25,954 nucleotides of DNA from a virus: positions 1-25,954 of IMG/VR virus record IMGVR_UViG_3300007640_000203. One strand, 5' to 3'. Each line of letters starts with the position of its first letter. Position 1 is the stretch's first letter. The notes beneath the pieces are model-generated. The model did no database searches. It was not told where the DNA came from and was given only the letters and a program-made list of their open reading frames with translations. Below, piece by piece: positions 229-19,141 of this stretch. A program made the translations under genes and the position numbers.

Positions 229-558
229 ATGGGTTTTGAAGATAGACCAGATGATATAAATAAAAACGGAAGACCAAAAGGTTCTCCAAATAAAACAACT
301 CAAGAGATTAGAGATGCTTTTCAATGCTTTGTAGAAGACAACACAGATAAACTACAAGATTGGTTAGAAAGAGTAGCAGAAAAGAACCCAGCTAAAGCAA
401 TAGAGCTAATGAGTAACTTATCTGAATACATACTACCAAAACTAAGCAGAACAGAAGTAAAAGCAGAAGTAAAGATTGAAGATGAAGTTGATTTAAGTAA
501 GCTACCACAAGACGTAATAGATAAATTGTTGAATGAAGACAACGCTAACCAAACTTAG
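229..558 (+). CDS. Putative terminase small subunit (DUF5681-like)
   Basis: A 109-aa protein. Residues 14-22 (NGRPKGSPN) match the basic GRPKGxxNK signature of DUF5681-type phage proteins, which lie directly before large terminase genes and are taken to be small terminase subunits that recognise phage DNA. The rest is helical and charged, with an acidic C-terminus (EDEVDLSKL). The gene overlaps the large terminase start by 26 bases, consistent with translational coupling. A promoter-like TAAATTTG lies upstream. The family assignment rests on the motif and location; DNA binding is inferred. Confidence 0.65.
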   Translation: MGFEDRPDDINKNGRPKGSPNKTTQEIRDAFQCFVEDNTDKLQDWLERVAEKNPAKAIELMSNLSEYILPKLSRTEVKAEVKIEDEVDLSKLPQDVIDKLLNEDNANQT

Positions 559-1972
559 AGCAGAATCTTATAGACGTTCATTTTATAAGTTTTGTTTAGA
601 AGCGTTTAAAGTATTACACAACGGTCAGCCAATGGTTGAGAATTGGCACATTAAGTATATTTGTGATAGACTACAAAAAGAAGCAATTAGAGTAGTAAAC
701 AAAGAACCAAGAGATAAGCACTTAATAATTAACGTACCACCAAGAACTTTAAAGTCTGAAATAGTAAATGTTTACTTTTCAGTTTACCTATGGATATTAG
801 ATGATAGTGTTCAGTTCATTAGTAGCTCTTATTCTGCTTCATTATCTACATCATTAAGCGTACAGGCAAGACGTTTAATAGAATCTGATTGGTTTATTAA
901 GCATTTTCCTAACATTCAAATCAGTAGAGATGAAAACACTAAGACTAAATACACAACACCTAACAACGGATTAAGATATTCAACCTCAACTGGTGGTACT
1001 GTAACTGGTATGGGTGGAGATGTAATAGTAATAGACGACCCACAAAACCCACAAGAAGCAAGAAGCGAAAAAGAAAGAGAAAGAGCAAACACATTTTTTA
1101 ATGAAACACTAAGGAGTAGATTAAACAATCCAGAGTTCGGAGTATTCATAATTATAATGCAACGACTACACGAAAACGACTTGACTGGAATGTTGTTAAG
1201 TGAAGACGCTGATAACTTTGAACATATTTGTTTACCTGCTGAATTATCACCTAACGTATTTCCAAGCGATTTAACAAACTTTTATACTGATTCGCTACTA
1301 TTCCCTCAAAGACTATCTAAAAGTGTCTTAGATAGCTTTAAAATAGGTTTAGGAAGTTATGGTTATTCAGGTCAGTATATGCAAAAACCATCCCCAGCAG
1401 AAGGTGGTATGTTAAAAAGAAATTGGTTTAACATCATTGATGAGCTACCAAAAGACAAGAGCGACAACGAAATACAGTTAAAATGGGACTTCTTCTTAGA
1501 TACAGCTTACACAGATAAGACTTATAATGACGCTACTGCTATGTTAGCTTTTGCTAAACACAACGAAGAGTTTATTATTAGAAAGATTGAAACGGTTAGA
1601 TTAGAGTTCCCAGAGTTGGTTAAAAAGATACAAGAGTTTGTTTATGCTAACGGTTATACTAATTCAAGTAGAATATTCATAGAGCCTAAAGCAAGTGGTA
1701 AAAGTATTATACAACAGTTAAAACGTCAAACAGGGTTAAATGTAATAGAAGATAAACCACCAACACAGGATAAGATTAGTAGAGTTAATGCTATATCTCC
1801 AGTAGTAGAAGCAAGGCGTGTCAATTTGTTAGATGGTCGTTATATTGATTCTTTTTTAGATGAATGTTCAGCGTTTCCAAATGGTAATCACGATGACCAA
1901 GTCGATGTATTGGTTATGGCTTTAGATAATTACACAACAAGAAATAAATCAGTTCAAGCATTTGCAATATAA
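533..1972 (+). CDS. terL: Terminase large subunit (packaging ATPase and nuclease)
   Basis: A 479-aa protein of normal TerL length. The ATPase domain shows a Walker A-like PPRTLKSE at residues 69-76, Walker B DVIVIDD at 163-169 and the MQRLHENDL motif near 209-217 typical of phage TerL. The C-terminal RNase H-like nuclease supplies acidic residues in FLDTAY (D323), FIEPKASG (E384) and NHDDQVDV (D454, D455, D458). It should drive DNA into the prohead and cut concatemers. The usual Walker A form in this group is PPRxGKS; here Leu replaces Gly. The ATG overlaps the small subunit gene. The portal is not adjacent but about 21 kb downstream, which is unusual. Confidence 0.95.
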   Translation: MKTTLTKLRAESYRRSFYKFCLEAFKVLHNGQPMVENWHIKYICDRLQKEAIRVVNKEPRDKHLIINVPPRTLKSEIVNVYFSVYLWILDDSVQFISSSYSASLSTSLSVQARRLIESDWFIKHFPNIQISRDENTKTKYTTPNNGLRYSTSTGGTVTGMGGDVIVIDDPQNPQEARSEKERERANTFFNETLRSRLNNPEFGVFIIIMQRLHENDLTGMLLSEDADNFEHICLPAELSPNVFPSDLTNFYTDSLLFPQRLSKSVLDSFKIGLGSYGYSGQYMQKPSPAEGGMLKRNWFNIIDELPKDKSDNEIQLKWDFFLDTAYTDKTYNDATAMLAFAKHNEEFIIRKIETVRLEFPELVKKIQEFVYANGYTNSSRIFIEPKASGKSIIQQLKRQTGLNVIEDKPPTQDKISRVNAISPVVEARRVNLLDGRYIDSFLDECSAFPNGNHDDQVDVLVMALDNYTTRNKSVQAFAI

Positions 1973-2329: not shown

Positions 2330-2563
2330 ATGAAAGAAGAAAAATATTTAAAAGTAGCTCTAGAAATTGCTGTTGATTACATACAAAGTAGAATGAGTAA
2401 TGTTTATTTTGAAAGCACAAAAGCAAGGAATAACGCTAATTGGTATATGATGAAAAATCACGTTGACTTATTTAAAGATGTTTTTAATATAGACCTATCA
2501 AACATATCATTTAAGTTTATGGAAACAAAAGAAGAAATGATAAAAAAGATGTTGAAACAATGA
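2330..2563 (+). CDS. Unknown small helical protein
   Basis: A 77-aa charged protein of likely helical character (KYLKVALEIAVDYIQSRM at the N-terminus). No family recognised. It ends with an ATGA overlap into the next gene at 2560, a typical coupled junction, which together with its position in a continuous same-strand series supports it as real. It lies directly before the putative tail assembly chaperone. Confidence 0.6.
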   Translation: MKEEKYLKVALEIAVDYIQSRMSNVYFESTKARNNANWYMMKNHVDLFKDVFNIDLSNISFKFMETKEEMIKKMLKQ

Positions 2564-3288
2564 TAACATTAGAAATTGAAAACAAAAAATATCAATGCCC
2601 TAATAATTACAGCGATATTACATTAGGTAGATTTAAGCAAATTCAAACTTGGTTAGAGTTAGAACATAATCAACCGATAGTAGATAAGATAATTAAAAGC
2701 GAAGTAGATGATGAAGAAGAGGCTTTAAATTTCTATTTAGACTTTATCAACTATGTAACTAAGATACCCAAGAAATATCTAATGCAAGTTAAACCGTATG
2801 GAGATGACAAGATAGATGAGCTATCTATTCAATGGGTATTTGAAACACTATCATTTTTATTATGTGTACCACAGATAGAAAACCCAAAACCAGTTGAAAG
2901 GATAGACAACTTATATTTTATAGATAAGATTGATTTAAACCAAGCTATATTAAAGGACTTAACATTTAGAGAATACGTAGAAGCCAACGGTGTTATAAAA
3001 GCATTTAACGAACTAAAAGAAGGGCGTTATGAATACCTTAATTTATTGTTAGCTGTTATGTATAGACCAAAAGAAACAAAAGGTAAGCTATGGTGGAAGA
3101 AAGAAGTAATTGAAGAGTATGATAGTGAGAAAGTAAAAAGACGTGCTGAATGGTTTGACAATGTTAATATGGATATTATATGGAACACATTGTTTTTTTT
3201 TATGCAGTCGAAAACAAACTCTCTAAAAAATATAGAGGCGTATTTTCAAGAGGAAATGGCAAAGGCACAGCAAGACTTAAAGGTTTAA
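2560..3288 (+). CDS. Putative tail assembly chaperone, short form (G-like)
   Basis: A 242-aa soluble protein beginning MITLEIENKKYQCPNNYSDI, a small beta-rich start followed by helices. I do not recognise it from sequence alone. The assignment rests on architecture: a second reading frame, -1 relative to this one, is open from 3168 and continues past this gene's stop to 3458, and in the overlap this frame reads through T TTT TTT (3195-3201) and A AAA AAT (3225-3231). This is the G/GT arrangement of long-tailed phages, in which a minority of ribosomes shift -1 to make an extended chaperone that binds the tape measure. The tape measure gene is about 12.7 kb downstream rather than adjacent, which weakens the case. 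Confidence 0.6.
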   Translation: MITLEIENKKYQCPNNYSDITLGRFKQIQTWLELEHNQPIVDKIIKSEVDDEEEALNFYLDFINYVTKIPKKYLMQVKPYGDDKIDELSIQWVFETLSFLLCVPQIENPKPVERIDNLYFIDKIDLNQAILKDLTFREYVEANGVIKAFNELKEGRYEYLNLLLAVMYRPKETKGKLWWKKEVIEEYDSEKVKRRAEWFDNVNMDIIWNTLFFFMQSKTNSLKNIEAYFQEEMAKAQQDLKV

Positions 3289-3458
3289 ATTGGTTTATAA
3301 TGAGGTATGATATAGCAGAGAGTGGAGTGTTTAATAAATCAGATATGACCCCATTTGATGCAGTAGGATATGAGAATATTCACAATGTATTAAGATACGC
3401 AGATGTAAGAGCAATACAAGCTGACGAAAGAAACAAAGAAGCTAAAAAGAAAAAATAA
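3180..3458 (+). CDS. Probable -1 frameshift extension of the tail assembly chaperone (T-like)
   Basis: This frame is open from 3168 to 3458. Slipping at the T9 run would give a product of about 299 aa: 214 residues from the 2560 frame, then 85 residues beginning YAVENK. The part beyond the upstream stop (LNWFIMRYDIAESGVF and NIHNVLRYADVRAIQADE) resembles the short helical C-terminal domains of GT-type chaperones. An alternative is an independent 52-aa gene starting at the ATG at 3300, 12 bases after the upstream stop; another ATG at 3180 would overlap by 109 bases. The lysine-rich end (KEAKKKK) is followed within 6 bases by the next gene. Confidence 0.55.
   Translation: MEHIVFFYAVENKLSKKYRGVFSRGNGKGTARLKGLNWFIMRYDIAESGVFNKSDMTPFDAVGYENIHNVLRYADVRAIQADERNKEAKKKK
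3193..3231 (+). promoter_or_regulatory. Candidate -1 ribosomal frameshift sites
   Basis: Nine consecutive T (3193-3201) are read as three Phe codons in the 2560 frame, so T TTT TTT is an ideal X XXY YYZ heptamer. A second, A AAA AAT at 3225-3231, also fits the pattern in the same frame. Both lie inside the window where the -1 frame is already open and before the zero-frame stop at 3286-3288. I could not identify a convincing stimulatory hairpin by eye. Confidence 0.5.
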
Positions 3459-3464
3459 CTAAAG

Positions 3465-3656
3465 ATGAAAAAGATTAATATTATAAGACATAAAGATTTA
3501 GATGTAGTCTTACCAATGCTTAGTTATGTAGTAGAAAAGAGCAGAGAGTTAAATAGAGAGCTACCACAAGAAATAGAAGAAATTAGATTACACTACATAA
3601 AATATTTAACATTATTAAAATTAAAAATGCAATGGGAGATAAACCTCGTATCTTAA
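3465..3656 (+). CDS. Unknown 63-aa helical protein
   Basis: Starts 6 bases after the chaperone extension and overlaps the first glycosyltransferase-like gene by 25 bases. The product is predominantly helical (VLPMLSYVVEKSRELNRELP) with no recognised domain. Its last residues (KMQWEINLVS) fall in the overlap and may be a by-product of it. It could be a tail-assembly accessory or belong to the accessory block. Confidence 0.5.
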   Translation: MKKINIIRHKDLDVVLPMLSYVVEKSRELNRELPQEIEEIRLHYIKYLTLLKLKMQWEINLVS

Positions 3657-4444
3657 TAGGAACTGTAACAAATCAAGTAAAGGATTATTGTTGGGCTGCA
3701 TTTAAAAAGCAGTTATTAGAGTTTAAGAAGCTAGGACACGATGTTTTAATAGTTGACAACACTCATAAGATAATAAATAGACCACCATTTAAAACTATAC
3801 ATTATAATCCTAAACCAATATACAGTAAGTTAGCTGGTACTGGTAGAAATCCTTTAACGGTTATCACTAGAGATTGTATGAATATACTACGTGATGAGTT
3901 CTTAAAAGGCGATTATACTCATTTATTTGTATTAGAAAGCGATGTATTCATAGAAATAGAAAGACTACAAAAGTTAGTTGATATGAAAGCAGATGTAGCT
4001 AACTATACATATCCGATGAGATTATCAAGAAATAACGGTTTAATTAGCTTATGCGTTCAAAGTAGAGGTACTGACAACGCTTCTATAATGTTAAGCCCAC
4101 AAGATAGTAAAGACTTAGTAGAAAGTGGTTTAAAAGTTTTAAATGTAGATACTATAAATGGCAGGACTATTTCGCATTGTGGTTATGGTTGTACTTTGAT
4201 AAGTCGTAAGGTATTAGAAAAAATAGAATTTCAAGCTGTTATAACTCCAGATGGTAAACAACCTTTTCCAGATTCAATGTTTCACGAAGACGTAAAGAGT
4301 AACAACTTTTATAGTGTATTAGATACTGATTATCTAGCATTCCACGCTAATCTACACGATGAAACAGTAAAATATAAAAGAGTTTTAGACATACAAAGCA
4401 AGACCACTAGAAGACAAAGACGTGCATCTAAAAGAAGAAATTAA
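3632..4444 (+). CDS. Glycosyltransferase-like protein (GT-A fold, family 2-like)
   Basis: A 270-aa protein. The N-terminus (RILIGTVTN, then HDVLIVDNT) resembles the nucleotide-binding start of GT-A enzymes. THLFVLESDVFIE at about residues 96-108 holds ESD in the place of the metal-binding DxD motif, and HEDVKSNNFYSVLDTDYLAFH near the C-terminus resembles the ED...H end of such domains. It would transfer a sugar from a nucleotide sugar; donor and acceptor are unknown. It lacks membrane segments, so it is probably cytoplasmic. The C-terminal end is basic (TTRRQRRASKRRN). It opens the accessory block. At about 270 aa it is compact but normal for phage glycosyltransferases. Confidence 0.65.
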   Translation: MGDKPRILIGTVTNQVKDYCWAAFKKQLLEFKKLGHDVLIVDNTHKIINRPPFKTIHYNPKPIYSKLAGTGRNPLTVITRDCMNILRDEFLKGDYTHLFVLESDVFIEIERLQKLVDMKADVANYTYPMRLSRNNGLISLCVQSRGTDNASIMLSPQDSKDLVESGLKVLNVDTINGRTISHCGYGCTLISRKVLEKIEFQAVITPDGKQPFPDSMFHEDVKSNNFYSVLDTDYLAFHANLHDETVKYKRVLDIQSKTTRRQRRASKRRN

Positions 4445-4688
4445 AAATATAAAAGGAAATAAGTTGATAGTAGCTAAAACAAGGTTAAGAGGACACTATT
4501 ATATAAACTCAAATAGAAAGTTTGAGCATTTGTTAGATGATTTACAAGTTAGATTAATAGCATTAGACGTAAGAGAAAACGAAGAGCAAGATTTAACAGT
4601 AGTATTAAAGACAGATTATAATAAGAGATTAGTAGAAGAAATTAGTAAATTGCAAAAAGTAATAAGATTTAAAATAGTTGAGTTATGA
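4422..4688 (+). CDS. Unknown 88-aa protein, GTG start
   Basis: No family recognised. The product is charged with alternating helix and strand tendency (KLIVAKTRLRGHYYINSN, LQVRLIALDVRENEEQDL). It contains no internal methionine; the frame begins with GTG at 4422, overlapping the preceding gene by 23 bases, and the next candidate is TTG at 4464, which would give 74 aa. It ends in an ATGA overlap with the next gene, supporting its reality within the block. Confidence 0.5.
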   Translation: MHLKEEIKNIKGNKLIVAKTRLRGHYYINSNRKFEHLLDDLQVRLIALDVRENEEQDLTVVLKTDYNKRLVEEISKLQKVIRFKIVEL

Positions 4689-5008
4689 TGGATGTAAAAA
4701 GAGAATATTTAGATATACCTTGTTTGGACTTATTTGATTATGATGGTGTTTTGATAGACGACCTAATTAAATACCTAAGATATATAAAAAAGAGTGGGTG
4801 TAAAAAAGTTGGAATGTCTAGTGTTGATTATGGGTGTTATGAATTTATAGGTTGGAAATATGTTAAGATGACAAAGAAAGAAATAGAGGAATTAAATAAT
4901 AATGATTGGTCTATGCTTAATCTTATTCCACCCCAAAAAGAAATATTGCAAGAAGAAATGATTGACGATATTATAAAAGAAATGATTGAAAAAAATAAAG
5001 ATGAATAA
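4685..5008 (+). CDS. Unknown 107-aa acidic protein
   Basis: Starts with ATGATG at 4685, overlapping the previous stop by 4 bases, and ends in an 8-base overlap (ATGAATAA) with the next glycosyltransferase-like gene. The N-terminal half has an acidic stretch (CLDLFDYDGVLIDDLI) and the C-terminus is a Glu/Lys-rich helix. The DYDGVLIDD string recalls the nucleotide-binding DxDGxL of HAD phosphatases, but the rest of a HAD domain is absent, so I do not assign it. Confidence 0.5.
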   Translation: MMDVKREYLDIPCLDLFDYDGVLIDDLIKYLRYIKKSGCKKVGMSSVDYGCYEFIGWKYVKMTKKEIEELNNNDWSMLNLIPPQKEILQEEMIDDIIKEMIEKNKDE

Positions 5009-5657
5009 AGTTTGTATAGTACCAATATTCGGAGATTATGACACTCTAAAAGAGCCTACTGTTATAAGTGATGGCTGGAAGTATATCTGCATATCAGACA
5101 GACATCATAAGTCTAAAGTATGGAAAACTAAAATACTTAAAGCAGACACAACTAATAAGCGTAAGAGTGGGTATGTATTAACTCAATTACATAGAATAAT
5201 AGATTTTGATATTGCTTGTGTAGTAGGTGGGCAGATACAAATTAACACAGACTTAAATAAGTATATTGAAGATGTTGATTTTATAAGTTTAGACCACCCA
5301 TCAAGGAATTGTATTTATAAAGAAGCACAGGCTTGTATATTGTATGAAAAGGACGACCCAAAAGTAATAGCAAGGCAAATGTATAAATACTTAGAAAGCG
5401 GCTATCCAGTAAACAATGGAATGATACAAACAGGAGTAACATTTAGAAAAGATAGCAATTTAATTCGTACATTTATGAATCATTGGTGGCACGAAATACA
5501 GCAAGGAAGTCATAGAGACCAATTAAGTTTTAACTATATATTAGATAAGTATAAGATAAGCACAAAAGAATTGAGTAGTAATTTATTAAGAAACGAATTT
5601 AGGTTAAATAATCATAATGAAAATAGCAATAGTAACAGCAATATGGCAACGTCCTGA
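5001..5657 (+). CDS. Glycosyltransferase-like protein (DUF616/TOD1-like)
   Basis: I choose the ATG at 5001 (MNKVCIVPIFGDYDTL, 218 aa) because it gives the 8-base overlap seen at other junctions; 4986 is also possible. The layout (start, then WKYICISDRH, then KTKILKAD, then a hydrophobic strand around DIACVVGGQIQIN, then HPSRNCIYKEAQAC) resembles DUF616-type hexosyltransferase-like domains, where the strand normally ends in an acidic metal site; here GGQIQI replaces the expected acidic residues. The C-terminus (NENSNSNSNMATS) is encoded wholly inside the start of the next gene and is low in complexity. It probably transfers or binds a nucleotide sugar, but with an altered metal site the activity is uncertain. 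Confidence 0.55.
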   Translation: MNKVCIVPIFGDYDTLKEPTVISDGWKYICISDRHHKSKVWKTKILKADTTNKRKSGYVLTQLHRIIDFDIACVVGGQIQINTDLNKYIEDVDFISLDHPSRNCIYKEAQACILYEKDDPKVIARQMYKYLESGYPVNNGMIQTGVTFRKDSNLIRTFMNHWWHEIQQGSHRDQLSFNYILDKYKISTKELSSNLLRNEFRLNNHNENSNSNSNMATS

Positions 5658-6339
5658 AGTATGGGATATGTTTAAACAAGGTGTTAGACGTTTACGTAAT
5701 CAATATGAAGATGTAGAAGTAGAAGTTTGCGTTGCTGGTTCAGAGGGTTATCGTAGTCAAAACAGATGTAAAGAGAATTGGATTCACTATGTAGAAATGC
5801 CAAACAACCCACTAGGACGTAAAATGAACGCAGCATCTTTATTAAGTAAAGAAACTAACGCAGATTATTATTTACTAATGGGTAGTGATGACATCATTTG
5901 TAATAACCTATTTGATTTGTATTTAGATTATATGGAGCAAGGGATAGACTACATTTATTTAATGGATGGTTTCTTCTTTGACACAACAACTAAAAAGTCT
6001 TTATATTGGGCAGGGTATAGACAAGACCATAATAAAGGCGATTCTTTAGGGGCTGGAAGAATGTTAAGTAAGAAAATGATGGAGAAAATGGATTATCAAT
6101 GTTGGTATGATGTTAAAATGAGTGGGCTATTAGACCAAGCGATGAATGAAAAACTAGAAGGATTTGAATACACTAAACAAGAAATATGGTTAAGAGATAA
6201 TAACTGTATGCTATTAGATATAAAGAGCAGTACTAATATGACTAAGTTTGCTAAATGGGATAATACCGAGTTTATAGATACTAAGCGTTTATTAGACTTT
6301 TTACCTACATACGAATTTAATAAGATATACAATGGATAA
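5617..6339 (+). CDS. Glycosyltransferase family 2-like protein
   Basis: A 240-aa protein that begins MKIAIVTAIWQRPEV, a characteristic GT2 start, and has YYLLMGSDDII at about residues 84-94 with the acidic pair D91-D92 where the metal and nucleotide-sugar site lies. A later Trp/Tyr-rich section (LYWAGYRQDHNKGD, CWYDVKMSGLLDQAMNEKL) fits an acceptor-side region. The start is fixed by this conserved N-terminus despite a 41-base overlap with the previous gene. It ends in an 8-base ATGGATAA overlap with the next. No membrane segments are visible. It would add one sugar to an unknown acceptor. Confidence 0.75.
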   Translation: MKIAIVTAIWQRPEVWDMFKQGVRRLRNQYEDVEVEVCVAGSEGYRSQNRCKENWIHYVEMPNNPLGRKMNAASLLSKETNADYYLLMGSDDIICNNLFDLYLDYMEQGIDYIYLMDGFFFDTTTKKSLYWAGYRQDHNKGDSLGAGRMLSKKMMEKMDYQCWYDVKMSGLLDQAMNEKLEGFEYTKQEIWLRDNNCMLLDIKSSTNMTKFAKWDNTEFIDTKRLLDFLPTYEFNKIYNG

Positions 6340-6688
6340 GATATACAATAAAAAAAAATTAAAATCATTTAATCCGTACAACGAGAAAGATTTTAAATTT
6401 ACAAATGATAGTGCAAAATATCTGATGTCAATAGATGAGTTTATTGAAAATATAAATTCTCAAGTTGAGTTAGGTGCTACTCATTTAAAGGTTTATGGTA
6501 GTAATGATGAGTATAATGATTATGTGTACTTTTCTTTTTATGAATTAAGCGAAGAAACTGATGAACAGAAAAACACTAGGGAAGCTAAATACAAATTAGA
6601 TAAACTCGTTTTAGAAGCACGTTGGAAGGCTAAAAAAAGAAATGAATTAGCTATATTATTAAGAATGAAACAGGAGGGGGAGATATGA
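6332..6688 (+). CDS. Unknown 118-aa protein inside the glycan block
   Basis: No family recognised. It has a central mixed region (SIDEFIENINSQVELGATHLKVYG) followed by a charged C-terminal helix (KYKLDKLVLEARWKAKKRNE). It is joined to its neighbours by an 8-base overlap upstream and a 4-base ATGA overlap downstream. Its last codons carry an AGGAGG sequence that serves as the ribosome-binding site of the following sulfotransferase gene. Confidence 0.55.
   Translation: MDKIYNKKKLKSFNPYNEKDFKFTNDSAKYLMSIDEFIENINSQVELGATHLKVYGSNDEYNDYVYFSFYELSEETDEQKNTREAKYKLDKLVLEARWKAKKRNELAILLRMKQEGEI
6673..6678 (+). promoter_or_regulatory. Canonical Shine-Dalgarno before the sulfotransferase gene
   Basis: AGGAGG followed by GGG lies 6 bases before the ATG at 6685. 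Nearly every other gene here has an A-rich upstream region and no such sequence, as expected for Bacteroidota. Confidence 0.65.
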
Positions 6689-7302
6689 GTAAGATATTTA
6701 TTACAGGAGTAGCTAAAAGCGGAACAACCCTGCTAAAAAGAATGTTCTTTGCGTTTGAAGATGTAGCTATAATAAAACAAGAAGTAACAATAGACGACTT
6801 TGTTAAGCAAGAAGTACCTAATGGAAGAACTTTGATAGGTAAAAGAGGCTCTCAAACTTTATTAGGTTGTGGTTCTTTACCGTTTGCAGAAAGAGAACGC
6901 CAAGCAGAACTAATGAAGGATATGATTATTATTAATATAGTTAGGCATCCTAATTCAGTATGTAAGTCTTATCTTAGAGATTTTGATGTTGACGGTGGTT
7001 TTGATTGGGTTTATAGTGTTTATGATTATCTTGATTATAAATATTTAATAAGGCTTAATATTAAGTATGAGGATTTAATAGAAAACCCAAACGAAGTTCA
7101 GAAAAGAATAAGTGAAGCAACAGGATTAAAGATTAAACATAAGTTTAGTGATTACCCTAGTTTTTTCCCTGATAGAGATGTTGAAATGCAAGAACAATAC
7201 CAAGCTAGAAAATTAGAGAAAATAGAAATGCCTGAAAGATGTAATACTCTTATGTCTGAAGAATCAATCAATATTGCTAAAAAAGTTTACGGTTATGAAT
7301 GA
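6685..7302 (+). CDS. PAPS-dependent sulfotransferase family protein
   Basis: A 205-aa protein. The 5'-phosphosulfate-binding loop is GVAKSGTTLL at residues 8-17 and the 3'-phosphate-binding element is IVRHPNSVCKSYL at about 85-97, with R87 and S95 in the expected places. IKYEDLIENP (about 146-155) is the conserved YExL segment of carbohydrate and protein sulfotransferases. It would transfer sulfate from PAPS to a hydroxyl or amine, most likely on a sugar given its glycosyltransferase neighbours. At 205 aa it is shorter than the usual 250-350, with little beyond the PAPS-binding core. It is preceded by the only strong Shine-Dalgarno sequence I found. Confidence 0.85.
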   Translation: MSKIFITGVAKSGTTLLKRMFFAFEDVAIIKQEVTIDDFVKQEVPNGRTLIGKRGSQTLLGCGSLPFAERERQAELMKDMIIINIVRHPNSVCKSYLRDFDVDGGFDWVYSVYDYLDYKYLIRLNIKYEDLIENPNEVQKRISEATGLKIKHKFSDYPSFFPDRDVEMQEQYQARKLEKIEMPERCNTLMSEESINIAKKVYGYE

Positions 7303-7885
7303 TGTAAGCCCATTTGCATACGTTAGCCCATACGCTATATTAGGCAAAGGAAACGTAATAGAAGAAGGTGTTGTAATAAAAGACAACGTAGTTATAGGAG
7401 ATAACAACCATATATCGCCTTATGTTACTATTGGTTTAGCTGGAGAAGTAAGAGGGGAAAACGAAATAAAAGGAAAAGTAGTAATAGGTAGCAATAATGT
7501 AATAAGAGAATTTACATCTATACAAAGTCCTCAAAGATATGACTTTACTCAAATAGGTAATAACTGCTTTATAATGGATAAAGTACATATAGCACACGAT
7601 TGTATAGTAGGGGACAATGTAACAATAGCACCAATGGTTACTTTAGGTGGTTGTGTTAATATAGGTGATTATACTAATCTAGGTATAAACTGCTCAATAC
7701 ATCAACGATTAACAATAGGAGAAAGTGTAATGATTGGAATGGGTAGTATAATAACAAAAGATGTTCCTAATTATGAGAAGTGGTTTGGTTGTCCAGCCAT
7801 TTTTAAAGGTTATAATTTAATAGGATTACAAAAGAGATACCCAGAGAAAACAGAAGAAGAATTAATTAATATTTGTAGAAAATGA
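7295..7885 (+). CDS. LpxA-like left-handed beta-helix acyltransferase
   Basis: I choose the ATG at 7295 (196 aa), which gives the ATGAATGA overlap with the previous gene; 7274 would add 7 residues. The protein is built of hexapeptide repeats (IGDNNH, IGSNNV, IGNNCF, VGDNVT, IGDYTN, IGESVM). KVHIAHDC at residues 96-103 matches the HIAHDC active-site segment of LpxA, with H101 at the position of the catalytic His125 of E. coli, and IHQRLTIG (H136) matches its VHQFCIIG. YNLIGLQKRY corresponds to the VNIEGLKRR segment. LpxA moves a hydroxyacyl chain from ACP to UDP-GlcNAc. This version is about 65 residues shorter, lacking most of the C-terminal helical domain, so donor and acceptor may differ. 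Confidence 0.8.
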   Translation: MNDVSPFAYVSPYAILGKGNVIEEGVVIKDNVVIGDNNHISPYVTIGLAGEVRGENEIKGKVVIGSNNVIREFTSIQSPQRYDFTQIGNNCFIMDKVHIAHDCIVGDNVTIAPMVTLGGCVNIGDYTNLGINCSIHQRLTIGESVMIGMGSIITKDVPNYEKWFGCPAIFKGYNLIGLQKRYPEKTEEELINICRK

Positions 7886-8823
7886 GTTTTAAAAGAGGAT
7901 TATGTGATATAGGTGTTTTAGAAGCTGCTGCTGGGTGCAATTTAAGATGTGCGTCCTGTGTTGCTTGGACTGAAAAGGGTAAAGACCTTATTACGGAAGA
8001 AATAATAGAAAAAGCAATGCCCCTATTTAAAAGAGTAGGCGTTAAGCAAGTACAGATGTATTGGCGTGGAGACCCTTGTATTCACCCAAGACTGCCAGAG
8101 ATGAATGAAATAGTTTTAAGGCACGGAATGAAAACAATAGTAAGTACTAATGGGGTGACTAAGCATTGTGGTAATCCAGAGTATATGAGAAAACTATTAA
8201 ACACAACTACTCACTATGCTGTTTGTTTAGATGGACACGACGCAGAATCATTGGCTAAATATAGGATAGGTGCTAAATGGGATAGAATGATTAACAATTT
8301 AGAAATAGCGTCTAAGATTGATTCTAATTGTGATAAGATTCTAGCTGTATTAATGTTTAAATACAACGAGGGGAAAGAGCATATATTCGAGGAAATAGCA
8401 AAGAAATATGGCTTTAGGGTTGATTTTAAAGCACCTAATGTATTAGGAGAGTACATATTGACAGAAGACCAAGCTAATGAATGGTTAGCAGAATCACCAA
8501 AGTATAGCAGATACGACAAGACACCATCAAAAGATATTGAGGGTATTAAATGGAGAGGTAATGATGTAGCACCTAAAAATATGGGAGAGTATGTTTACAT
8601 ACATAGAAACGCAGACAACTGTACGTCTGGGAATATTATTGTAGCTGCGAATGGAGATATACCTATATGTGGTCAATTCACTAAAGAAATTAATGGACTA
8701 GGTAATGTATTTGACCCAATAGATAATATACTTGCTAGATACGCTGGTATAAATGAAGATATGTATGATAGAAAGTTGAAAGAGTGTAGTGAGAAATGTT
8801 TATGTATTGTTAAACCAAGATAG
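7882..8823 (+). CDS. Radical SAM protein with SPASM-like C-terminus
   Basis: A 313-aa protein. CNLRCASC (C19, C23, C26) is the CX3CX2C motif that binds the [4Fe-4S] cluster used to cleave S-adenosylmethionine. YWRGDPCIHP (about 55-64) stands in the place of the GGEP motif. The C-terminal part carries further cysteines (NCTSGNIIVAANGDIPICGQ and ECSEKCLC) in the pattern of a SPASM-type auxiliary cluster region. It would carry out a radical reaction on a substrate that cannot be read from sequence. SPASM proteins include peptide-maturing enzymes and aminoglycoside/sugar dehydrogenase-type enzymes. It is coupled by ATGA to the LpxA-like gene upstream and followed one base later by the amidotransferase genes. 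Confidence 0.88.
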   Translation: MSFKRGLCDIGVLEAAAGCNLRCASCVAWTEKGKDLITEEIIEKAMPLFKRVGVKQVQMYWRGDPCIHPRLPEMNEIVLRHGMKTIVSTNGVTKHCGNPEYMRKLLNTTTHYAVCLDGHDAESLAKYRIGAKWDRMINNLEIASKIDSNCDKILAVLMFKYNEGKEHIFEEIAKKYGFRVDFKAPNVLGEYILTEDQANEWLAESPKYSRYDKTPSKDIEGIKWRGNDVAPKNMGEYVYIHRNADNCTSGNIIVAANGDIPICGQFTKEINGLGNVFDPIDNILARYAGINEDMYDRKLKECSEKCLCIVKPR

Positions 8824-8824
8824 T

Positions 8825-9310
8825 ATGTGTGGAATATTAGCTATACAAGGTAAACATAGGTATAAAGAAATACCAGAAGCTCTAATTGAAAGAGGTCGAG
8901 ATAGTCAAGGAATGTATCAAGATGAATACGCTCAACTTATACAGACTAGGCTACATATTACTGGTGGTGATGTTCAATTACCCTACCAACAAGAAGAATT
9001 TGTTTTACTGTTTAATGGCGAAATATACAATTATAAAACATTTGCAGACAACGAATATAAAGCTATCATAGAAGCATATAAAAGCGATAGGATGAACGAA
9101 TTAGACGGTCAGTATGCTATTATAATTTACAACAAAGAAACGCATTTAATGGACGTTTATTTAGACGAACTAAGAATACACGCTTTGTATATGGATGAAT
9201 ACAACGGAAGCACTATCTACTCATCAAATTTAAGAAGCCTACCAAAGTTAGAATACGATAAATACCAACATCGAGGTTATGGAAACATCACAAAGCAAAG
9301 AGTTTTATAG
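8825..9310 (+). CDS. Glutaminase (class II amidotransferase) half of an asparagine synthetase-like enzyme
   Basis: The start is the ATG at 8825, because class II glutaminases need Cys2 as nucleophile after removal of Met and the protein begins MCGILAIQG. The product is 161 aa. It shows ERGRDSQG at residues 22-29 (the RGPDxxG motif with Arg for Pro), LLFNGEIYNY at 61-70 and LDGQYAI at 93-99, all glutaminase-domain signatures. It would release ammonia from glutamine for the partner synthetase domain encoded next. In almost all homologues the two domains are one chain of 500-630 aa; here they are separate frames overlapping by 32 bases. The last residues (NITKQRVL) lie in that overlap. Confidence 0.85.
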   Translation: MCGILAIQGKHRYKEIPEALIERGRDSQGMYQDEYAQLIQTRLHITGGDVQLPYQQEEFVLLFNGEIYNYKTFADNEYKAIIEAYKSDRMNELDGQYAIIIYNKETHLMDVYLDELRIHALYMDEYNGSTIYSSNLRSLPKLEYDKYQHRGYGNITKQRVL

Positions 9311-10028
9311 CGATTTTTTAAGTGCTATTTATAAGCGAATGACTAATAGAGTAGTTGTTCCAGTTTCAGGTGGGTTAGATTCTACATTAATAGTTAAGGC
9401 TTTATATGACTTAGGACTACATAAAGACGTTAAATACGTAACAATGGGTAGTAGTAAGTATGTTGATGCTGTTAGTTCAAAGTATGGTATTTATGTTGAA
9501 AGTTTTGAGCCGCAAATAAACAAGGGAGATTTAAGAAAGCAAATAGAAATATTAGAAGAGCCTTTTTATGCACCAAGTGTTAACTATTATCTATATGAAA
9601 AAATACATCAAATGGGTGGTAGAGTTTCATTCTCTGGATTAGGTGCAGATGAATTGTTCGGTGGTTATGACTACTACAACACAGAATTATATCCAAGAGG
9701 GTTGTTTCAAGAAATTAAAGCAGTAACAAACGAAGAGAAGAAAGAGCAGGATAAATACTTTTTAACTCACCATCATTTAAGAGAAAACGAAAAGATAGGT
9801 TTATATTGGCAAGTAGAGGGGCGTTATCCGTTTTTAGATAAAGAAGTTCGTAAGCATAATGATATTGGTAAGTCAATAATAAAAGAAATACTATTAAGAG
9901 ATTTTAAAGATAGCTTCGTTAATAGAAAAAAAGAGGGATTTAGACTAACAGAAGTTAAAGACCGTTCTAAACAAAGACTACAATATTTAGAACAATTAGC
10001 AATATTTAGAGATATATTCAAAATTTAG
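9279..10028 (+). CDS. Synthetase (ATP-pyrophosphatase) half of an asparagine synthetase-like enzyme
   Basis: A 249-aa protein. VSGGLDST at residues 29-36 is the PP-loop that binds ATP pyrophosphate. FSGLGADELFGGY at 118-130 matches the LSGDGGDELFGGY motif of AsnB. EGRYPFLD at 180-187 and NRKKEGF at 215-221 match later conserved segments. It would adenylate a carboxylate and replace AMP with ammonia from the glutaminase partner. The acceptor might be aspartate or a uronic or nonulosonic acid on a glycan, as in several O-antigen amidotransferases. The frame is +1 relative to the glutaminase gene and open only from 9252. The pair totals about 410 residues, which is compact. Confidence 0.87.
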   Translation: METSQSKEFYSDFLSAIYKRMTNRVVVPVSGGLDSTLIVKALYDLGLHKDVKYVTMGSSKYVDAVSSKYGIYVESFEPQINKGDLRKQIEILEEPFYAPSVNYYLYEKIHQMGGRVSFSGLGADELFGGYDYYNTELYPRGLFQEIKAVTNEEKKEQDKYFLTHHHLRENEKIGLYWQVEGRYPFLDKEVRKHNDIGKSIIKEILLRDFKDSFVNRKKEGFRLTEVKDRSKQRLQYLEQLAIFRDIFKI

Positions 10029-10088: not shown

Positions 10089-10568
10089 ATGGCAAGATTA
10101 AAAGACGTTGTTGATGAATGTTTAACTGTCGCAGATGCTTACGTTGATATTAGTTCAAGTACTTATAATGAATTAAGTGCTGTAAATTGGGAAGATAACG
10201 ATAAAGACTTTCCAATGTTTCTATTTGATAAACGAAGTGTAAACGTAACAGTTGACAAATATTCAAGAACTAACTTACCATCATCTTCTATCTATACAGC
10301 AACAGTTTATTTCTTTAACACTTACAAGGAAAGCGAAAAAGCGAGTACCGACCTACAAACAAAGCAAGATACTTTGATTGACTATGCAAGTAAATACTTT
10401 GCAGAACTAAGAAGTCGAAACGAAAGTGGTTCAAATGGTTTTTATTTGGGTGCAATATCCTTTAACAGTTTAGATGAAGCTCATAGTGGTAACCTTATAC
10501 AACTTGCTTATAATGTTGAATTTATTGTCAAGGTAGAAAATTGTACTCTTGGCGATTTTAATTATTAA
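10089..10568 (+). CDS. Putative tail terminator / tail completion protein
   Basis: A 159-aa mixed alpha/beta protein without membrane segments. The arrangement (FPMFLFDKRSVNVTV, YTATVYFFNTYKES, a central helix, then LIQLAYNVEFIVKVENC) resembles tail-terminator/neck proteins of Bacteroidota phages, which cap the tail tube, and it lies next to an HK97-gp10-like gene as expected for neck modules. I recognise the architecture rather than a definite family. It is the first gene after a promoter-like gap. Confidence 0.45.
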   Translation: MARLKDVVDECLTVADAYVDISSSTYNELSAVNWEDNDKDFPMFLFDKRSVNVTVDKYSRTNLPSSSIYTATVYFFNTYKESEKASTDLQTKQDTLIDYASKYFAELRSRNESGSNGFYLGAISFNSLDEAHSGNLIQLAYNVEFIVKVENCTLGDFNY

Positions 10569-16204: not shown

Positions 16205-19141
16205 ATGGCAACAACAAAGACATTAGCGTTAAAGATAGATGTACAAGGAGAAGAGCAGTTAAAACAGTTACAATATAATTTTGACAATTCTAGACGTGCT
16301 TTACAGACTTTAAACAAAGCAGAAAAAGCGGGTATAATTACAGCTAAACAAGCAAACGCTGAAAGGGCTAGATTAAACGTACAGTTAAAAGCAAATAGAA
16401 ACGCTTTAACAGACCAACAAAACGCCATACTAAGAAACAATGACGCTTTAAAAAAGAATAGTGGATTTGTTGCTGGTGTTAAGAAGGGAGTAGGTCAATG
16501 GGCTACTTCGATGATTGGTGTAACTGCTGCTATCGCTATAGGGACTAGGGTTATTGGTAATATGGTTAGTGTTGTAACCGATTTTAGTAAATCAACATCG
16601 ACATTAGCTGCTGTATTAGGTAAATCAAAAGAAGAAATAAGAGATTTATCAACACAGGCAAAACAATTAGGAGCAACAACAGCGTTTACAGCATCACAAG
16701 TTGTTGAGCTTCAAACTGAATTTGCAAAATTAGGTTTCCCAACTGGAGATATAAAGAATATGACAGCATCAACATTAGATGCTGCTGCTGCACTTGGTTC
16801 TGATTTAGGGGAACAAGCAGCTTTAACTGGAGCTGTATTAAAAGGTTTTGGATTAGATTCAACAGAAGCAGCTAGAGTTAATGATGTATTAGCTAAATCT
16901 GCTAGTAGTTCTGCATTAGATTTTAGTAAATTAAGTACAGCCTTGCCAATAGTAGGTGCAACAGCTAAAACTGCTGGTGTTGATTTAGAAAGAACAACAG
17001 CTTTATTAGGTACTTTATCAGATAGGGGTATTGACGCTAGTACTTCTGCTACTTCATTAAGAAATATATTCTTAGAATTAAGTAAGAAAGGATTGACTTT
17101 CGAGGAAGCAATGGCTAAGATAAACGGGGCAGCAGATAAAAACGCTGTTGCTATGGATTTATTCGGTAAAAGAAGTGCTACTGCTGGTATTATTATAGCT
17201 GAAGCTGGTATTAGTATTGATAAACTAGAGGGAACACTAAATAATGCGGAAGGAGCAGCAAAAGCAATGGCTGACACAATGCTTGATAATTTAGCTGGAG
17301 ATATTACAAAAGCAGAATCAGCTTGGGAAGGATTTATACTTTCTTTGGAAGATGGCGAGGGTGCTTTTAGTCAAGTTTCTAGGTCATTTACACAAGGGTT
17401 TACTTCTATATTAGGACAGTTAACAAAGATGAATGAGGGCGACTGGTTTGGGGTTGGCATGGAATCGTTAAGACAAATTAATCCTGAATTAGAAAACTTT
17501 ATTGAAGTAACCGATAGAGCAACAGGAGAAACAAGAAAACTAAGTATAACTCAAGAAGATTTACTCGTAGCATCTGAAAAGAACGCTGAAATATTTGGAG
17601 CTTTAAACGAGGCTTATAAAAACAAAACAATAAGTGCTGAAAAATACGCTGCTGGTGTAAAAGAATTGGTTGGTGGATATGATGGTTTAACAGATTCAGA
17701 GAGAAAATTTAGAGATGATATTGCTGGGTTAGTAGAAGACTTAAAACGTGGTGAAATAAGTTTAGAGCAGTTTCAGGAAAGTGTTGAAAAAACAAGAGAA
17801 CAAAGAATTGCACTTGGTAGAAAAAAGATGGCTGAAGAAGTTAAGCAACGAAACGCAGAAAGAAAGGCAGCCGAAAACCAAGCGTTAAATGAAAAGTTGG
17901 CAGCAGATAACGCAGCAGCGGAAGAAGAAGAAAAAGCAAACGAGAAACGAGAAAAAGCAGCAGTAGCTTCGGCTAAAAGAATAGCAGACGCCAAACGTAA
18001 AGAAGAAGAAAAAGCCTTTGAAGATAAAAAGAAAAGAGAAATAGATGCTCAAAAACAATTAGAACAACTAGCAATACAATCTATTGAAGATGATAGAACA
18101 AGAGAAAAACTCGCTTTAGCTGCTAAGTTTGATGATAAAATTGCAGCAATAAAACAAGATAGTGAGGCTGAAAAAACATTAGTATTAGCAATAGAAGAAC
18201 AAAAAAGGACAGCACTAAATGAACAGGATGCTAAGTTTAAAGAAGAAGATAAGGCAAAACAGCAATTAGAGAGAGCTTTAAAATTGGAAAATGCTTTGAT
18301 GCAGGCAGAGGAAGATTTAGCACAACAAAATATAATATTAGAACAACAAAGACAATTACAGTTAGAAAATGATAAGTTAACTAGTGCTGAACGTGAAAGA
18401 ATAAATTTAGAATTTAATCAACGTATTGCGGAAAACACAAAAAACTTAGAAAAAGAAAAACAGAAAGCGGTAGTGGCAACAGCTAATATTGCTATAGGCG
18501 CTTTAGATGCAGCTTCAGCATTTGCAGCAGAGGGTTCTGATTCACAAAAAGCCTTAGCTTCAGCAGCAGCTTTAATTAGTACTTATCTAGCAGCACAACA
18601 AGCGTATCAATCACAGATGGCTATATTTACTCCTGACGCACCAATTAGAGCAACCGTAGCAGCTGGTGTAGCTGTTGCACAAGGTTTAGCTAGAGTTAAA
18701 GCAATAAACGCTGTAAAAGCTGCAAAAGGAATGTATTTAGAAGATGGTGGAATGATTAACGGAGCATCACACGCAAACGGTGGAGTGCCTTTTACAGTAG
18801 ATGGTAGAACTGGATTTGAAGCAGAAGGTGGAGAGGCTATAATTAATAAACGTAGTACAGCGTTATTTAAACCTTTATTAAGTCAAATCAATCAAGCTGG
18901 TGGTGGTGTTGCTTTTGCTAAAGGTGGTTTAGTAAGTAAGTTTCAAAACGGTGGATTAAGTCCTAGTAACGTGGGGGTAACTTCAGCACAGCAAGGATTT
19001 AATCAAGGAATAATAGATATAGATGGATTATCACAGTCAATAAGCAACAACATCAATTCAATAGAAGTAGTAAATGTAGCTACAAATACAAGTCAAGTAG
19101 CAACAGAAGTAATTAACATACAAAACGAAGCAACATTTTGA
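16205..19141 (+). CDS. Tail tape measure protein
   Basis: A 978-aa protein. It has an N-terminal Lys/Gln/Asn-rich helix, a hydrophobic stretch around residues 100-125 (MIGVTAAIAIGTRVIGNMV), then the tape-measure core (KQLGATTAFTASQVVELQTE, LDFSKLSTALPIVGATAK, RGIDASTSATSLRNIF). A long Ala/Glu/Lys coiled coil follows at about 540-760, then a second hydrophobic region and a conserved C-terminal GGEAIINKRST segment. It sets tail length; at about 1.5 Å per residue this predicts a tail near 145 nm. No lytic domain is visible. The next gene starts at TTG inside its stop. Confidence 0.95.
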   Translation: MATTKTLALKIDVQGEEQLKQLQYNFDNSRRALQTLNKAEKAGIITAKQANAERARLNVQLKANRNALTDQQNAILRNNDALKKNSGFVAGVKKGVGQWATSMIGVTAAIAIGTRVIGNMVSVVTDFSKSTSTLAAVLGKSKEEIRDLSTQAKQLGATTAFTASQVVELQTEFAKLGFPTGDIKNMTASTLDAAAALGSDLGEQAALTGAVLKGFGLDSTEAARVNDVLAKSASSSALDFSKLSTALPIVGATAKTAGVDLERTTALLGTLSDRGIDASTSATSLRNIFLELSKKGLTFEEAMAKINGAADKNAVAMDLFGKRSATAGIIIAEAGISIDKLEGTLNNAEGAAKAMADTMLDNLAGDITKAESAWEGFILSLEDGEGAFSQVSRSFTQGFTSILGQLTKMNEGDWFGVGMESLRQINPELENFIEVTDRATGETRKLSITQEDLLVASEKNAEIFGALNEAYKNKTISAEKYAAGVKELVGGYDGLTDSERKFRDDIAGLVEDLKRGEISLEQFQESVEKTREQRIALGRKKMAEEVKQRNAERKAAENQALNEKLAADNAAAEEEEKANEKREKAAVASAKRIADAKRKEEEKAFEDKKKREIDAQKQLEQLAIQSIEDDRTREKLALAAKFDDKIAAIKQDSEAEKTLVLAIEEQKRTALNEQDAKFKEEDKAKQQLERALKLENALMQAEEDLAQQNIILEQQRQLQLENDKLTSAERERINLEFNQRIAENTKNLEKEKQKAVVATANIAIGALDAASAFAAEGSDSQKALASAAALISTYLAAQQAYQSQMAIFTPDAPIRATVAAGVAVAQGLARVKAINAVKAAKGMYLEDGGMINGASHANGGVPFTVDGRTGFEAEGGEAIINKRSTALFKPLLSQINQAGGGVAFAKGGLVSKFQNGGLSPSNVGVTSAQQGFNQGIIDIDGLSQSISNNINSIEVVNVATNTSQVATEVINIQNEATF

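Follow-up and report, generated by a model that had tools for sequence, protein, structure and literature searches.

To our knowledge, all verified −1 shifts in tail-chaperone genes are ribosomal. The model case is phage lambda, in which gpG and the frameshifted gpGT act in tail assembly; lambda G/GT and two chaperone genes of the HK97 type, for which 6-7% was measured, either are ribosomal or have been treated so (PMC5009743; PMC3711429). Programmed transcriptional slippage at A9 or T9 is described for Thermus dnaX (A9), Shigella mxiE and spa13, and the transposases of IS elements (PMC5009743, PMC1088944). T runs of at least 7 make the RNA polymerase of E. coli slip; the enzyme prefers T to A and inserts more than it deletes (PMC6260861), and in many bacterial genomes the avoidance of A/T runs becomes evident at nine (PMC1088944). 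Our literature search found no phage tail gene reported as using programmed transcriptional slippage.

Here, we describe a phage gene pair in a 25,954-base IMG/VR virus record, referred to in its entirety as the window. In the explanation that we consider best overall and hold with moderate confidence, the gene G and the −1 frame that follows it, T, would together constitute one recoded gene, with slippage of RNA polymerase as the most likely means. Most decoding would end at position 3288 and produce G, while a minority would enter the −1 frame at a run of nine T's and produce a fusion, GT, of 299 amino acids. The features of the window on which this account draws are the following:

Positions 2560 to 3288, plus strand: G, a zero-frame protein of 242 amino acids running from an ATG at 2560 to a TAA at 3286-3288, with homologues in about 170 phage contigs; it would be the N-terminal part common to G and GT.
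Positions 3193 to 3201, plus strand: the T9 run, the putative slip site, with an in-frame T TTT TTT at 3195-3201.
Positions 3168 to 3458, plus strand: the T frame (−1), open from stop to stop and coding from 3201 on, with 85 codons to 3455.
Positions 3225 to 3231, plus strand: an A AAA AAT heptamer, in the G frame as CTA AAA AAT ATA, probably not the operative site.
Positions 2560 to 3458, plus strand: the predicted GT fusion, 299 amino acids, made of 214 amino acids of G (through the third TTT) and 85 of T.
Positions 533 to 1972, plus strand: the large terminase, a conserved neighbour of G and T.
Positions 16205 to 19141, plus strand: the tape-measure protein (PhageMin_Tail, E 1.6e-29), about 12.7 kb from T.

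The T9 run reads TTG TTT TTT TTT ATG in the G frame, and nowhere else does the plus strand of the window (26 kb) have eight or more T's in a row. A sequence-only reading of this DNA had placed T9 and A AAA AAT in G and the open −1 frame at 3168-3458, and all of these proved exact to the base. The predicted GT junction is ...NTLFFFYAVENK..., and the same junction peptide, LFFFYAV, results whether RNA polymerase or the ribosome slips. The window's only other homopolymer of nine is an A9 run at 6350-6358, near the start of an ORF at 6332-6688.

Between G/T and the tail genes lies a cassette (3632-10028), parts of which are kept in relatives, with an LpxA-like/sugar acyltransferase, a radical-SAM protein and an asparagine-synthase pair, as well as glycosyltransferases and a sulfotransferase that were read by eye and have no NCBIfam match. 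The asparagine-synthase-like protein is encoded in two pieces, a glutaminase part (8789-9310) and a synthetase part (9279-10028), whose ORFs share 32 nt in the +1 frame; five related contigs (the window, L003, L004, L005 and L006) agree in the length of this overlap and in the ATG of the second ORF.

Single-protein searches recovered only a near-copy of the window, the phage collection gave no match, and the relatives of G and T had to be found by alignment-based searches. Contigs with terminases 61-78% identical were reached through the window's terminase, and several of them carry G and T together. Alignment searches gave about 50 relatives of G, then 80 more loci, and then a third set of 95 loci; two alignments contained no part conserved well enough to serve as a query. 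The first set holds 53 distinct G proteins and, after removal of near-copies, 39 pairs; the first and second sets together comprise 103 distinct pairs, the third set 80 distinct sequences, and merging leaves about 174 distinct. The two final scans used patterns with FF residues, which could favour T-rich codons. T overlaps G in the −1 frame throughout the first set except for the broken contig L150, and the same holds for all intact pairs of sets one and two; in about 170 distinct relatives, the −1 frame of G encodes T across the same T-run. L150 was left out, as both its G and its tape-measure gene are broken in several frames, which suggests sequencing errors. Homologues have kept the two reading frames together with a slip site, so the refuting case set out in the sequence-only reading, a separate gene at 3300-3458 that lacks a conserved site, fails. 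The recoding site is real, conserved, and unannotated in a large phage family.

The T-run comprises at least nine T's in 103 of 103 distinct pairs from the first two sets and in 80 of 80 later sequences, in three codon registers. The run has 9, 10 or 11 T's in 98, 4 and 1 of the 103 pairs, and in 67, 12 and 1 of the later 80. All 39 first-set pairs carry T TTT TTT in frame, and all later sequences an in-frame T7 core; the T's added to this core are distributed differently among lineages: two before and none after in the window's clade, one on each side in the largest group, and none before and two after in the L098 clade, L149 and L227, or more. These extras never sum to fewer than two (103/103 and 80/80), and shuffling downstream against upstream extras gave P of about 7e-4 for 11 representatives below 40% identity and 5e-4 for 20 representatives below 50%, values that are optimistic because the representatives are related. 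The tree needs several changes of codon register, and the length of the run has been kept regardless of register. For the other coding sequence of related loci (484 genes, 378 kb), synonymous codon shuffles predict 8.8 T runs of at least nine and there are none, although this avoidance may reflect replication slippage.

The site at which decoding would change frame, and the form in which T is made, can be weighed together. We recoded G synonymously 2,000 times in 20 representatives less than 50% identical in G and scored the T frame. The ten T-frame codons after the run are under coding selection: their mean BLOSUM62 per pair is +0.82 against −0.73 (sd 0.14) in the recodings, and stops, which 14.2 sequences would be expected to contain, occur in none. 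For the ten codons upstream of the run, stops are not depleted (8 against 8.2 expected) and the score is only slightly in excess, with 2.8% of recodings reaching the real score. Because the coding signal of the T frame sets in behind the run and is not seen ahead of it, we identify the T-run as the slip site. The sequence-only reading had asked which of two heptamers is used; the T-run occurs in all lineages, whereas A AAA AAT is found in 5 of the 39 first-set pairs (the window, L086, L003, L006 and L011), all within the window's clade. That A AAA AAT works as the slip site, or as a second one, is therefore very unlikely: although it is in frame and in all five members of the clade, it is missing from other lineages, and it is forced by Leu-Lys-Asn in G over Lys-Lys-Tyr in T, codon use alone giving a chance of about 0.24 per sequence. 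Within the clade, moreover, the T frame between T9 and this heptamer already scores 2.55 against 0.48 ± 0.39 in recoded controls and has no stops, figures that are optimistic because the sequences are related. The alternative that T is a stand-alone gene, starting at 3180 or 3300, is scarcely credible. It has in its favour that the first ATG of the window's T frame lies at 3180 and another at 3300, and that L086 also has an ATG; against it, 71 of the 103 relatives have no ATG, GTG or TTG in the T frame between the point where it opens and 30 nt beyond the start of the heptamer, and L126, L094 and L151 have none anywhere in this frame. With so many relatives lacking a usable start, T is generally not a separate gene. 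A start at 3300 would also lose the conserved first part of T, and the suggestion that the downstream product runs from 3300 fails on the same ground, as the coding signal follows directly on the T-run and the fused part begins well before 3300.

Relatives in which G and T are one continuous ORF also stand against a separate T, and they provide the strongest argument for GT as a real product. A fold search led to Flavobacterium phage 6H, and the T domain of 6H, used in tblastn, led to cultured phages. In Flavobacterium phages 2A, 23T, FPSV-D15 and laban6-1 and in Bacteroides phage BT-TP2, G-T forms a single ORF of 293, 301 or 270 amino acids, and these genes carry no T run of 7 or more. The window's locus should therefore likewise yield a GT fusion, of 299 residues. 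In 6H itself (L239), a patch at about 10350-10390 on the minus strand has a 2-nt indel relative to its close relative 2A that breaks the continuous G-T ORF; at first this looked like another frame arrangement, and it may be a sequencing error or real. Assembly error was considered as an explanation and was rejected or ranked low.

Which machine slips is a separate question, and here the sequences favour RNA polymerase with moderate probability, while a ribosomal shift is plausible but clearly less probable. In the transcriptional scheme, RNA polymerase would realign on T9 in a programmed manner and add one U to give U10, bringing the T frame into line, and ordinary ribosomes would then read GT from the U10 transcript; one inserted U gives exactly the −1 frame. 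Transcriptional slippage wants an A/T homopolymer of about 8-9 or more (PMC1088944, PMC3711429), and the T-run of this family has both the length and the conservation. In the ribosomal scheme, a canonical −1 frameshift at U UUU UUU (3195-3201) would yield G and GT as in lambda. It draws on the same coding evidence, on the in-frame T TTT TTT that always lies within the run, and on the precedent of the lambda-type genes cited above. However, a ribosomal heptamer needs 7 T's in register 3, 8 in register 2 and 9 in register 1, whereas the run has at least nine in every register, and none of the members uses a different heptamer, for instance T TTT TTC. Against the polymerase, ribosomal slippage too may increase with longer U runs, and the residues flanking the run are also under protein constraint in two frames. 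A test of folding stability found no conserved downstream fold that could act as a ribosomal stimulator: 35 relatives showed no excess (mean z −0.06 against −0.23 in control regions), and the mildly stable downstream region of the window alone (z −2.1) has no counterpart across them. Flavobacterial ribosomes are generally held to use Shine-Dalgarno pairing little, which makes a Shine-Dalgarno stimulator unlikely.

Taken together, a run length that is independent of register, the absence of T9 from the other coding sequence of these loci and the lack of excess RNA stability downstream favour polymerase slippage, to which ribosomal −1 slippage at U UUU UUU within the same run could contribute, with the same junction. 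Of the earlier proposal of a G/GT-type −1 frameshift, the recoding and the −1 position of T thus stand, and the ribosomal slip is not established, given that the run length is kept independently of register. Phase variation, in which replication slippage would alter the length of the T-run so that G and T are in frame in part of the phage population, is extremely unlikely. One relative speaks for it: in L335 (1106-1861), a T11 run places G and T in one frame, as opposed to close relatives with T10 in the −1 arrangement, through either a run-length mutation or a sequencing error. All other intact sequences, about 170, are in the −1 state, although a switch would leave many in-frame assemblies, and the two separate isolates P12024L and P12024S both have T9.

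A role for the pair as tail chaperone is quite probable, judging from the G/GT architecture in a phage whose tape-measure gene indicates a long tail. The tape-measure gene was recovered in 15 of 22 related contigs, a set that includes many fragments, and in laban6-1, one of the one-ORF phages, about 5 kb separate the GT gene from the tape measure downstream. G/T is not located between the major tail protein and tape-measure genes; in the window, it adjoins TerL and is 12.7 kb from the tape measure, and TerL directly upstream of G, or one small gene removed, recurs in the distant relatives L153, L145 and L149 and in P12024L. The AlphaFold model of G is confident, with a pLDDT of 84. PDB fold searches gave no significant match, neither G nor T received a function from Pfam or PHROGs (NCBIfam being applied to the neighbouring genes only), and the BFVD fold matches are uncharacterised phage proteins. 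BFVD matches named tail assembly chaperone were set aside because their E values are above 1, and a profile match to 7uek 'OT3' was given no weight. The name tail assembly chaperone, proposed from the sequence alone, is therefore not established: these searches gave no sequence match and no significant fold match to a known chaperone, and the gene adjoins the terminase and not the tape measure. We expect that the gene pair works like G/GT, and it may belong to that family; in tail assembly, G and GT would act as gpG and gpGT do in lambda.

Hosts of the named phages that carry a related terminase or G/T are Croceibacter, Nonlabens/Persicivirga, Flavobacterium and Bacteroides. The host of the window phage is likely a member of the Bacteroidota, probably a flavobacterium; one query of a genome collection returned no relative, and hence no prophage host. 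The G/T family is probably one of marine and freshwater phages with flavobacterial hosts. It is an even call whether this widespread lineage sets its G:GT ratio by RNA-polymerase slippage at a length-conserved T9, with sister phages having made the fusion permanent. If the slippage is transcriptional, the host RNA polymerase and not the ribosome would determine the ratio of the two proteins. A run of at least nine T's in any register offers a rule for finding unannotated recoding in Bacteroidota phages, and the analysis names a protein family in hundreds of environmental phage contigs that are now filed as hypothetical proteins.

Compared with the known systems, the locus shares with lambda G/GT an upstream ORF followed by a −1 overlapping downstream ORF with no usable start, an expectation of few fusion molecules, and a long-tailed phage; no sequence match and no significant fold match between the two was found. 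The slip site of lambda is GGGAAAG, whereas here it is a run of nine or more T's; lambda G/T follows the major tail gene and directly precedes the tape measure, whereas G/T here adjoins the large terminase; and lambda's slip is ribosomal, whereas the run-length rule found here suggests RNA polymerase slippage. With transcriptional slippage at A9/T9, the locus shares a conserved A/T homopolymer of at least nine, a −1 product that would arise via one inserted base, and the avoidance of nine-runs elsewhere, but it differs in being a phage gene pair with G/GT architecture. The one-ORF G-T proteins of Duneviridae (2A, 23T, FPSV-D15 and laban6-1; phrog_25418, of unknown function) and of BT-TP2 have a homologous T domain and a G-like N-terminal part, and at 270-301 amino acids they are close to the 299 predicted here; their continuous frame with no T-run makes no separate G by this route. 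The cultured Nonlabens phages P12024L (gp40/gp41) and P12024S (gp38/gp39) have the same G/T pair beside the terminase, with T9, and thus provide a system usable for testing. Each pair is annotated as two unrelated hypothetical proteins, of 175 and 56 amino acids in P12024L, and the deposited annotation of both phages (L237, 12001-12695, for P12024L; L238, 3001-3695, for P12024S) shows neither the recoding at T9 nor how long T really is. Should the slippage in this family be transcriptional, lambda and these phages would have reached the same two-product solution with two different machines.
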